Origin: Persephonella sp. KM09-Lau-8
GTDB lineage: Bacteria; Aquificota; Aquificia; Aquificales; Hydrogenothermaceae
Reading direction: 5' to 3'
NCBI RefSeq assembly: GCF_000703085.1
Contig: NZ_JNLL01000001.1
Coordinates: forward strand, 1,612,001-1,676,000
Length of the DNA stretch: 64,000 nt
The stretch's first letter is position 1; the number at the start of each line of letters is the position of its first letter. The notes beneath the pieces were generated by a model. It made no database searches, was not told the DNA's origin, and saw only the letters and a program-made list of their open reading frames with translations. Position numbers and translations under genes: made by a program. Of the stretch, positions 53,953 to 57,366 are shown piece by piece.

Positions 53953-53960
53953 TTTATATA

Positions 53961-53982
53961 AAAGCGGGCTTTTGCCCGCTTT
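53961..53982 (+). terminator. Terminator after atpD
   Basis: AAAGCGGGC/GCCCGCTTT (9 bp, 4-base T loop) begins 8 bases after the atpD stop; a short T run (TTT CCATTCT) follows. It is one of the most GC-rich hairpins of the window and ends the F1 operon. Confidence 0.85.
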
Positions 53983-54098
53983 CCATTCTAAAAGTTCATC
54001 TTAAAATCCCGATAATTAAAAATAAAAGTTTAATGGGATTTTGTGTTTTTTTTAAGAATAATAAAAATATAAATAAATCTTATGAGGTAATAAAATTA

Positions 54099-54653
54099 AT
54101 GTCCGAGAAGACATTCAAAATCCTTGTGGCTGGTCATTTTGGTGCCGGTAAAACCACCTTTGTAAGAACAATTTCCCAGATAGAGACAGTAAATACGGAG
54201 AAAAAGACAACTTTAGCTGAAGAAAAAGCCAAAAAAGAAACCACCACAGTTGCTATGGATTTTGGAGAGTATACAAACAAATACGGTCATAAATTGAGAA
54301 TTTTTGGAATTCCTGGACAGGAAAGATTCTCTTTTATGTGGCCTATCCTTGCAAAAGATACAAAGGGATTTGTTTTTCTGATTGATTCTACAGATACATC
54401 CCGTTGGTTCGAGATACCTAAACAACTGAAGATTCTGATGAAAGTAAGTCCTTCTGCTCCTATACTTTTTGTGGCTAACAAAGTAGATCTCCCTGATGCA
54501 ATGTCTGCAGAAGAAGTGAGGCAAAAATTAAAGATACCTCCTCATATAAAGGTAATTGAAGGAGTTGCAACAGATAAAAATATGGTTGAAAAAATACTTG
54601 ATGAGCTTACAGAAGAAATACTAAAAAGAAATCCAGAATTAAAAGAGATCTGA
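54099..54653 (+). CDS. Ras-like small GTPase (MglA/CvnD-type, COG2229)
   Basis: The 184-residue protein has a P-loop GHFGAGKT (12-19), a switch II region FGIPGQERF (69-77) in which the usual Asp of DxxG is Gly, and NKVD (127-130). The FGxPGQ form is found in the CvnD-type GTPases of Streptomyces conservons and related bacterial G proteins; Myxococcus MglA has a related fold and also works with a Roadblock partner. The ATG at 54099 is favoured by GAGGT 10 bases upstream. A Lys/Glu-rich insertion (about 34-48) separates G1 from switch I. It heads a run of four genes with a 77-residue protein, a Roadblock protein and a c-di-GMP protein. Its target is unknown; a polarity or pilus role is one possibility. 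Confidence 0.85.
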   Translation: MSEKTFKILVAGHFGAGKTTFVRTISQIETVNTEKKTTLAEEKAKKETTTVAMDFGEYTNKYGHKLRIFGIPGQERFSFMWPILAKDTKGFVFLIDSTDTSRWFEIPKQLKILMKVSPSAPILFVANKVDLPDAMSAEEVRQKLKIPPHIKVIEGVATDKNMVEKILDELTEEILKRNPELKEI

Positions 54654-54677
54654 AACCTTTTTAATGGAGGTTTTAAT

Positions 54678-54911
54678 ATGAATGGAGGAAGTGCAATGCT
54701 TAAAGAAGAATTATCAAAATTAGAGCAGAAAAGGAAAACTGGAGAAATTGGAACTGCAGAGTTCTATCAGGGGCTTTTAAAGATAGTGAGCCTACTGGCA
54801 CAGGAACTGGGTAAGGAAAATATAGAGGAAAAAGAGATCAAAAGACAGATTCCACTTCTCCTCACATTTCTCAAATCACAGATCAAAAATATGGAAGACA
54901 GAAATTTTTAA
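54678..54911 (+). CDS. 77-residue helical protein between GTPase and Roadblock genes
   Basis: This unrecognised protein is helical and amphipathic (EELSKLEQKRKTGEIGTAEF, then GLLKIVSLLAQELG). The GGAGG upstream of ATG 54678 is strong; a second ATG at 54696 has GGAGG too and would give 71 residues. It starts 24 bases after the GTPase stop and ends 9 bases before the Roadblock gene. By position it could be an adaptor or exchange-factor-like piece of the G-protein module; that is inference. Confidence 0.7.
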   Translation: MNGGSAMLKEELSKLEQKRKTGEIGTAEFYQGLLKIVSLLAQELGKENIEEKEIKRQIPLLLTFLKSQIKNMEDRNF

Positions 54912-54920
54912 GGAGGTGTT

Positions 54921-55289
54921 ATGATGCTTACTCCAGAAAAGATAAATGAGAAAAGAGAGGCTTTCAAAGATATAGTTAGAACGAATAACCTTGATGGATT
55001 AATACTGGCAGATATTGAGGGGCTGCCTATAGTTTCATATTTGCAGGAAGGAATGGATGAAGACACTCTCGCATCAACAGGGGCGGCAATATTTACAGCT
55101 GGGTTAATGGCTATAAGTGATGTTAAAAAGAGAGGCTTAGAACAGGTGGTTCTTCATTCTCCAGATGGATATCTGATTTATACACAAATATCAGATGATT
55201 ATATTCTTGGTTTAATTTCTCCACCAGATGCTAAACTTGGAATTCTAAAAATGATAATCAAAAAGGTGACAGAGATGGTAAACGAATAG
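54921..55289 (+). CDS. Roadblock/LC7-domain protein (MglB/CvnB-like)
   Basis: The 122-residue protein is one Roadblock domain: FKDIVRTNNLDGLILADIEGLPIVSY, TLASTGAAIFTAGLMAISDVKKRG, VVLHSPDGYLIYTQISDDYILGLIS. In Myxococcus MglB is the GAP for MglA, and in Streptomyces CvnB belongs with CvnD. Here the gene follows the GTPase gene closely, so the pair is likely a working G-protein switch. AAGGAGGTGTT is the ribosome site, followed by ATGATG; the first ATG was chosen. Confidence 0.88.
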   Translation: MMLTPEKINEKREAFKDIVRTNNLDGLILADIEGLPIVSYLQEGMDEDTLASTGAAIFTAGLMAISDVKKRGLEQVVLHSPDGYLIYTQISDDYILGLISPPDAKLGILKMIIKKVTEMVNE

Positions 55290-55305
55290 AATGTATAAGG
55301 GAGAG

Positions 55306-55392
55306 GATGCCCTGCTTTAGCAATTGAGCTTTATTATTAATAGCAATTAGGGTATTATTAATAAATATAAAAAAATATTAGAGCAGGGCATC
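55306..55392 (+). promoter_or_regulatory. Inverted repeat bracketing the leader of the c-di-GMP gene
   Basis: GATGCCCTGCT (55306-55316) and AGCAGGGCATC (55382-55392) are perfect 11-base complements 65 bases apart, and the second arm ends at the base before the GTG start (55393). The weak ribosome site (GAGCAGGG) lies within the second arm. The loop holds two near copies of TATTATTAAT and two of TAGCAATT. A stem formed in mRNA would hide the ribosome site. Confidence 0.6.
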
Positions 55393-57366
55393 GTGAGGGA
55401 TTTTGGTATATTAGAGCCGTATTTAGAAGACATTTTTCACAAATTCTATAAAGAGATACTTTCTGATCAGTATTTAAGAACATTTTTCAAATCAGAGGAG
55501 CAGATTCAAAGACTTATAGAAAAACAGATAAGTAATCTTCAGGAAACTTTTAAAGAGACAGATAAGGAAATAGAAAACAGATATTATAATCTCGGAAATT
55601 TACATTACGACCTGAAAATTCCTTTTGTGAATCTACTGTCAGGAGTTGATTTTATTAAGAATGAGATTTATAAAATTTTAGCTGAAAAAGATGCCCTGGA
55701 TTCATACTTTTTTGAAGTCAACTCGCTTTTTGAAAAGATTAAAAATAGTCTTGCAAAGGCCTATCTTGACCGTTCACTTGAGGAAATTTCGATAGGATTT
55801 AATCCAGAATATAAGAGCTTTAAATTTTTTATTTATCATATTCAGTGGCTTGAAAGACTAAAAGATGTTGCTGCTTCTTTAGATAGAAGCCGTATCCCTG
55901 AACTGGACAGCAGGTACTGTAATTTAGGTAGGTGGTTTCAAACAAATGAATTTGAGCTTATATGTGGATATAGAAAAAAATGTTTCATAATTTCTGAACT
56001 CCATGAACTTATCCATAACACAGGAAAAAGTCTTGTTTTTTATATTTTTCATCAAAAATATGTTGAGGCGTATCTGCTTTTCAAAACCTTGAATGGTCTT
56101 TCTTTAAAGATTATGAATGAACTTTATGAGATATATCTTAACTTCTTAAATAATAGAGAAGAAAGATTTCTGTATTTTCTATCAAAGAAACTTCAAAAAA
56201 TAAAAGCAGGATATCTTTCTGTTATCAATATCAGGAAATTAAAGGCAATAAATGAAATATATGGAAAAGCTACAGGAGATTACATACTTGATATTGTAGA
56301 GAGACTTATAAAGGATAAATTGATTAAAAATGAAGATCTGTTGATAAGGGGAATCTCCGGGGAATTTTTTATATTTTGCGAAGATAGTAAAGAAAAAATC
56401 ATAGAAAAACTTAAAGATATCAAAAAGCATATTGAGGAATATAAAAACTTCCCTGTGAATGTAAAAATAAGTATTGGTATTCTTGAATTTCCTGAGAATA
56501 TATCAATCTCTCCGGAAGATCTAAGAAAAGTAATTAATATAATAAAAGAAAAAGCAAAGCAGGAAGAGGATTTTTATTTTTCAGATAAAAAGGAAATAAA
56601 AGAAAAAATTCTTCCTGAAATTAAAAGTCAGTTTGAGGATTTCACTTTTGTTAGTAGAGCAATATCAAAAGGGGAAGTTGATATCTTTTTCCAGCCTGTA
56701 GTTGATTTAAAAACTGGAAACAGATACGGACTGGAAGCACTGGCAAGAATCCACAAAGACGGGGAATACGTCCCAGCTGGAGTTTTTATTGATCCTGTGT
56801 ATAAACTGGGTATAATTGTGGATCTTGATAAAGTAATCATTAAAAAAATACTTAAAATTGCAGATATAATTTCAAAAAAAACAGATGTTTTGTTTGTTAA
56901 CGTCAGTCCAGAATCTTTAAAATCAGAGAGTTTTATTACTCTTTTAACAGATAGTATGGAATTACTCAGAAAAAAAGGAATAAAAGTTATCCTTGAGCTC
57001 ACAGAACAGTCATTCTTGAAAAATATAGAAATTATCAAGTTTCTTCATGAAGAGTTTGGTATATCCTTTGCTGTTGATGATTTTGGAACAGGATATTCAT
57101 CTTTAAAAACAGTGATAGATTTATCTGAGTCAAAGCTTATAGAAATCCTGAAAATAGATGGAAGCCTGATAAAAGAGATAGATTCTTCAGAAAAAAACAG
57201 AAAAATTGTTAAATTGATTGTAGCAATGTCAAAGAATTTAGGTATTGAAACAGTTGCAGAATATATAGAAGATGAAAGACTATTGAGAATTGTAAAATCT
57301 ATTGGAGTTGAATATGGACAGGGTTTTGGGATAGGAAAACCACAACCTATTTCTGAAATTGATTAA
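55393..57366 (+). CDS. Globin-sensor, CZB, degenerate GGDEF, EAL protein
   Basis: The 657-residue protein starts with GTG. Residues about 1-125 look like a globin-coupled sensor: LGNLHYDLKIPFVNLLSG (67-84) matches the segment with the proximal haem His of DosC-type sensors, so H71 is the likely ligand. Residues about 135-255 match a CZB zinc domain, with H149 (YHIQW), C176 (YCNLGRW), H204 and H208 (LHELIH). The GGDEF-like part (about 258-400) has SGEFF instead of GGDEF and is probably inactive. The EAL part (about 410-655) keeps LEALARI (E448), VNVSPE, ELTEQ, DDFGTGYSS, LKIDGS and AEYIE, so it is a predicted c-di-GMP phosphodiesterase. It follows the Roadblock gene by 103 bases. Confidence 0.82.
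   Translation: MRDFGILEPYLEDIFHKFYKEILSDQYLRTFFKSEEQIQRLIEKQISNLQETFKETDKEIENRYYNLGNLHYDLKIPFVNLLSGVDFIKNEIYKILAEKDALDSYFFEVNSLFEKIKNSLAKAYLDRSLEEISIGFNPEYKSFKFFIYHIQWLERLKDVAASLDRSRIPELDSRYCNLGRWFQTNEFELICGYRKKCFIISELHELIHNTGKSLVFYIFHQKYVEAYLLFKTLNGLSLKIMNELYEIYLNFLNNREERFLYFLSKKLQKIKAGYLSVINIRKLKAINEIYGKATGDYILDIVERLIKDKLIKNEDLLIRGISGEFFIFCEDSKEKIIEKLKDIKKHIEEYKNFPVNVKISIGILEFPENISISPEDLRKVINIIKEKAKQEEDFYFSDKKEIKEKILPEIKSQFEDFTFVSRAISKGEVDIFFQPVVDLKTGNRYGLEALARIHKDGEYVPAGVFIDPVYKLGIIVDLDKVIIKKILKIADIISKKTDVLFVNVSPESLKSESFITLLTDSMELLRKKGIKVILELTEQSFLKNIEIIKFLHEEFGISFAVDDFGTGYSSLKTVIDLSESKLIEILKIDGSLIKEIDSSEKNRKIVKLIVAMSKNLGIETVAEYIEDERLLRIVKSIGVEYGQGFGIGKPQPISEID

Follow-up and report, generated by a model that had tools for sequence, protein, structure and literature searches.

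Close study of Ras-like switches of the MglA/MglB type has been confined to a handful of bacteria, Myxococcus and Thermus among them, and it is established for these switches that a Roadblock dimer controls GTP hydrolysis by the GTPase. Published MglA-family GTPases fall into groups distinguished by their motifs: Group 1 combines a TVPGQ G3 motif with an intrinsic arginine finger next to the G2 threonine, and Groups 2-5, the CvnD-type proteins included, have GTPGQ in G3 and a threonine where Group 1 has the G2 arginine (PMC4316618). Group 1 Rup GTPases, which lack both the G3 glutamine and MglB, have neighbourhoods with c-di-GMP cyclase/phosphodiesterase genes (PMC4316618). In Myxococcus the GAP activity of MglB is stimulated by RomY, a protein of 188 residues with a conserved N-terminal part (residues 8-89, approximately 82 residues; PMC9481161).

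The window analysed here is a stretch of 64,000 nucleotides from Persephonella sp. KM09-Lau-8, in which four forward-strand genes follow the ATP synthase genes, separated from one another by gaps of 24, 9 and 103 nt. The first three encode an MglA-family small GTPase of 184 amino acids (54099..54653, assigned by ORF, domain search and motifs), a 77-residue protein of an undescribed family (54678..54911, assigned by ORF, fold prediction and its recurring Roadblock neighbour) and a Roadblock/LC7 protein of MglB type with 122 amino acids (54921..55289, assigned by ORF, domain search and tree); they lie in one common reading frame and are referred to below as the trio. The fourth, with a GTG start, encodes a 657-amino-acid protoglobin-CZB-degenerate GGDEF-EAL protein (55393..57366, +) and is followed by tsaD on the opposite strand. 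A GC-rich hairpin with a T-run after atpD (53960..53982, +) sets the trio apart from the ATP synthase operon, and the same kind of hairpin was found 3' of atpD in related genomes. The GTPase ATG at 54099 has GAGGT ahead of it; an in-frame ATG upstream, at 54033, is without such a site. This layout of four same-strand ORFs behind a terminator was as given in the original prediction, and the Roadblock identity of the third protein was confirmed by domain search (Robl_LC7, 39.6 bits against a cut-off of 23).

The GTPase consists of a single Ras/Arf-type domain (67 bits for Arf/Ras) with the motifs GHFGAGKT (G1), FGIPGQ (G3) and NKVD (G4), and an insertion between G1 and G2 places 31 residues between the P-loop lysine and the G2 threonine (19 in Ras). 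It agrees with the published description of the MglA family (PMC4316618) in having one G domain shorter than 240 amino acids, the G1-G2 insertion, no conserved Asp in G3, a retained PGQ and coupling to an MglB homologue, the Robl_LC7 gene lying in the same run. The sequences GIPGQ and TTTVAMD depart from Group 1; against Groups 2-5, the threonine agrees and the G3 motif is one residue off GTPGQ. The FGIPGQE of the window GTPase had been read as CvnD-type, which was right in direction, but the published CvnD-type G3 is GTPGQ (PMC4316618) and GIPGQ is a variant of it. All 13 trio-locus GTPases that were read have GIPGQ or GVPGQ rather than the usual GTPGQ, compared with none of eight operon-type and SMC-linked Aquificota GTPases, all of which read GTPGQ; two related GTPases that belong to no trio, L114 and L175, share GIPGQ. 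Judged by these motifs, the window GTPase belongs to the MglA family and comes closest to Groups 2-5, its G3 variant being the mark of its subgroup. Persephonella genomes also carry a separate MglA-type GTPase gene, with GTPGQ, flanked by the gene for an SMC-like protein of 1162 residues and by dnaN, the clamp gene (L122:7118-7639, at G000:C1:745 kb in the window genome; also L134, L135, L136 and L141), with no Roadblock gene directly beside it.

Searches with the window Roadblock returned 15 close matches from Aquificota, itself included (E <= 1.2e-27), followed by a clear step to a second Roadblock type (E 2.4e-23 and weaker), which at the loci inspected belongs to a Roadblock-DUF4388-GTPase operon. 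In the window genome this operon (L121:6095-8932) encodes a 383-aa protein of no assigned family, Roadblock, DUF4388 (PATAN) and GTPase, and it is widespread in Aquificota. The 15 trio-type Roadblocks formed a clade with support 98/97 (in a tree that omits G013, a near-copy of G006), together with one long-branched row, L175, which falls inside the clade with a branch of 2.1 and an unsure position. A gene of the 77-residue family was adjacent at 14 of the 15 trio-type loci, 2-31 nt from the Roadblock gene, and beside none of 29 control Roadblock genes (stretch read mostly ~1.5 kb either side); an intact MglA-type GTPase was likewise adjacent at 14 of 15. The idea that the 77-residue protein is a new subunit thus gained credibility. 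A rough binomial estimate gave 3e-26 for the chance of the 77-Roadblock adjacency (17 of 37 genes), a figure whose strength is overstated since related genomes were counted as independent. Three gene orders were found, GTPase-77-Roadblock in Persephonella, GTPase-Roadblock-77 in family f2 and 77-Roadblock-GTPase in one further genome (G044), and linkage that survives rearrangement is better explained by function than by shared inheritance of a block. The GTPase, 77-residue and Roadblock genes are therefore a conserved module.

One genome (G046) is an exception in having a trio-type GTPase-Roadblock pair with its 77-family genes elsewhere, another (G064) has a GTPase-Roadblock pair without a 77 gene, and L175 is the other exception to 77-Roadblock adjacency. 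At one locus of G040 (L115) the 77-Roadblock pair is kept beside a degenerate GTPase gene (L115:9645-10106, minus strand) in which no G3 motif was found; an intact trio-type GTPase is encoded elsewhere in that genome (L114:10875-11444). All four 77-like copies found in f5, a distant family, adjoin a Roadblock gene, with a nearby GTPase recognised at one of them only (L167). Proteins of ~200 aa with a common motif, FDIQTE, are encoded beside or near the f5 Roadblock-77 pairs (L167:5846-6442(-), L168:6698-7327(+) and L169:5515-6108(-)); two that were tested gave no Pfam match over the cut-off. No output gene was common to the trio neighbourhoods read.

The 77-residue protein was predicted by AlphaFold2 (from six sequences) to be a three-helix bundle (helices 3-20, 26-45 and 57-75; mean pLDDT 92), and conserved features of its family include RK (19-20), Y30 and the stretch QIPLLLTF. 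Compared by sequence with PDB, Pfam, NCBIfam, PHROGs and PADLOC, the family gave sub-threshold matches only, and no solved structure was related to the protein in sequence; with the model as query, Foldseek returned nothing at E <= 0.001 and VIA-align gave Z <= 6.0, within helical-bundle noise. Weak matches to the gas vesicle protein GvpG were seen in 7 of 16 family members (best E 3e-4), and the 77-residue protein itself was rejected as a GvpG at 14.1 bits against the Pfam cut-off of 30.6. A profile built from 16 members detected family genes in 24 of 136 Aquificota genomes; a search of genome contigs gave only five loci, all from Aquificota, and no relative was found among plasmids, phages and viral contigs.

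The family is not solely a Roadblock partner, because members without a Roadblock neighbour exist, as scattered orphans and as a clade of eight loci upstream of dnaX. These dnaX-linked paralogues, one in each of eight family f2 genomes, group with support 97/79, lie immediately 5' of dnaX (clamp loader gamma/tau) and in most cases overlap it by 1-4 nt (L150:5716-5943(-), L151:6093-6362(+), L153:5872-6156(+), L154:6332-6559(+), L156:2816-3049(+), L159:6381-6608(-), L161:5780-6007(+) and L163:6030-6311(-)). Tandem copies occur as well, and longer proteins contain two repeats of the 77-residue domain (L113:10533-11054(-), L128:6674-7129(+) and L129:6959-7615(-)), the one in L113 being encoded just upstream of a trio. 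The orphan, tandem, two-repeat and dnaX-linked copies together would suit a family of dispersed small proteins whose role is a different and older one, such as at dnaX, some copies of which landed by Roadblock genes. We regard this explanation as unlikely, given an adjacency that holds at nearly every trio-type Roadblock gene in spite of the shuffled order and at every copy found in f5. A wider proposal is that a phylum-wide three-helix family of ~76 residues serves as a general Roadblock/GTPase partner in Aquificota, with a specialised branch encoded at dnaX, and that this, taken with the SMC/dnaN GTPase, could link Ras-like switches to the replication of DNA or other work on the chromosome in deep-branching bacteria; it is speculative, and we consider it improbable.

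The original prediction had suggested that the EAL gene may belong to one signalling unit with the G-protein, so that the switch and c-di-GMP turnover would act together. The shared strand, the 103-nt gap and the presence of all four genes together in the window genome and two others (G000, G006 and G013) are compatible with such a unit, and a precedent exists in the Group 1 Rup loci, where cyclase/phosphodiesterase genes adjoin GTPase genes (PMC4316618). Against it, the EAL gene stands at the same site, directly after atpD, with no trio in six genomes (G001, G004, G005, G009, G010 and G011) and likewise, in decayed form with broken frames, in a seventh (G008), and in G002 tsaD comes immediately after the trio and the EAL orthologue is missing (the genome is 83% complete and the stretch contiguous). 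The expected co-occurrence of the four genes in relatives thus failed, and the trio surroundings read in other families contained no EAL/GGDEF gene, so that outside the genus the EAL gene is near no trio. In a tree of five flanking proteins, G001 fell beside G000, G006 and G013, and G002 with G010 and G011; trio presence must consequently have changed twice or more, and the absence of the EAL gene from G002 is a further, separate change. The EAL gene is a neighbour that was gained and lost separately from the trio, and with a hairpin over its ribosome-binding site in the window genome also telling against joint action, the four-gene unit is very improbable.

That hairpin, which likewise lies outside the trio, is formed by an inverted repeat (55306..55392, +) with arms of 37 nt (55306-55342 and 55356-55392); it folds at z = -4.2 to -4.5, and the GCAGGG ribosome-binding site of the EAL gene (55383-55388) is buried in the predicted structure. 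Hairpins of different sequence occupy the same place in G010 and G011 (z of -4.3 and -3.4, respectively), and there is none at that place in G001, G004, G005, G006 and G009. Since a hairpin occurs at this place in some species only, separate control of EAL translation is likely in some and not all of them; in the window genome the EAL gene probably has its own translation control, as far as the predicted fold goes, and the hairpin is a candidate RNA switch or thermosensor. A search of Rfam gave no match, and a mobile-element origin of the repeat was rejected, since the genome shows no clear second copy of it.

The domain content of the EAL protein was largely as anticipated: Protoglobin (35.5 bits, cut-off 25) and EAL (167.7 bits) were detected, CZB matched at 25.9 bits, under its cut-off of 29.4, with its H/C/H/H ligand pattern conserved in the genus, and a GGDEF domain (45.2 bits) is to be added to those listed earlier. 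The protoglobin H71 and the CZB ligands H149, C176, H204 and H208 are genus-conserved. The EAL signature is present together with E448, N503, E535, D562, D563, K587 and E623, the metal and catalytic residues of EAL domains, and nearly all of these are conserved in the genus; the G011 orthologue has EVL in place of EAL. The GGDEF signature is degenerate, reading ISGEF in all Persephonella orthologues aligned, and a role as diguanylate cyclase was rejected on the missing GG(D/E)EF. Because the EAL residues are kept and GGDEF is degenerate, the protein is predicted to act as a c-di-GMP phosphodiesterase and not as a cyclase, with sensor domains for gas and zinc. Several Persephonella genomes also encode a 245-aa protein and a 673-678-aa EAL-domain protein between aroC-side and protease genes (L107:99-2854, L109:11738-14493, L110:11649-14419 and L105:5912-8667), neither of which is found there in the window.

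Our preferred reading, to which we assign a probability of about 0.62, is that the genes at 54099-55289 form one module in which a dedicated three-helix protein of 77 residues modulates the GAP function of an MglB-type Roadblock regulator acting on an MglA-type GTPase switch. By homology, the GTPase would alternate between a GTP-bound and a GDP-bound state, with the Roadblock dimer regulating GTP hydrolysis as a GAP; the 77-residue protein probably docks on that dimer, either by itself or together with the GTPase, and once docked could adjust GTP hydrolysis or pass a signal on, a role comparable to that of RomY. The Roadblock appears the likeliest direct partner of the 77-residue protein, because the two genes stay paired where the GTPase is degenerate or unrecognised, and a small, RomY-like modulator of Roadblock GAP activity is our best guess for its function by analogy. 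The same pairing, at L115 and in f5, where the GTPase is not adjacent or not recognised, speaks against a GEF-like or effector-adaptor subunit with the GTPase, and not the Roadblock, as its target, in a role like that of RomX; such a subunit is possible, if doubtful, and would fit both the position of the 77 gene directly after the GTPase gene in Persephonella (24-nt gap) and the switch II variant common to trio GTPases. Fold prediction of the trio fused as one chain, with the stop codons read through, gave a poor and uninformative model (pTM of 0.41 and a mean pLDDT of 56, from an alignment of 9 rows only).

Compared with described systems, the trio resembles MglA/MglB of Myxococcus and Thermus in joining an MglA-family GTPase, with the G1-G2 insertion and no Asp in G3, to an MglB-type Roadblock (PMC4316618), and differs in the threonine, not arginine, beside the G2 threonine, in GIPGQ as opposed to the Group 1 TVPGQ, in the third small gene of the operon and in having no polarity partners seen nearby. 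The MglA Group 5/Roadblock-PATAN (DUF4388)-GTPase operon of the same genome (G000:C1:316-319 kb, L121) encodes a GTPase ~44% and a Roadblock ~40% identical to those of the trio, but with GTPGQ, with DUF4388 and 383-aa proteins instead of the 77-residue protein, and with a Roadblock of a separate clade. Actinobacterial conservons (CvnA-D) likewise combine GTPase, Roadblock and further proteins in an operon; neither the histidine kinase CvnA nor a CvnC-like protein was recognised among the trio neighbours, and the 77-residue protein matches no known domain. Group 1 Rup loci resemble the window in having a GTPase gene beside a c-di-GMP cyclase/phosphodiesterase gene, from which the trio departs in its retained G3 PGQ glutamine and adjacent Roadblock, and the trio is a caution against reading the adjoining c-di-GMP gene as part of it. 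MglB with RomY offers a parallel, drawn by size and role only, in that a small third protein works with GTPase and Roadblock (PMC9481161); RomY differs in its length of 188 residues, and none of the genes that flank it is a known motility gene. The earlier statement that no described system has this set stands for the third small subunit, on which a literature search found no paper, but not for the MglA-MglB coupling, which is well described, nor for proximity to cyclase/phosphodiesterase genes, known from Group 1 Rup (PMC4316618). A small and easily produced third subunit, conserved alongside the switch in Aquificota, offers a minimal, probably heat-stable three-protein system for reconstituting the regulation of a Ras-like GTPase. 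The trio is a variant of the known MglA/MglB kind, and its new part is the dedicated small third protein.
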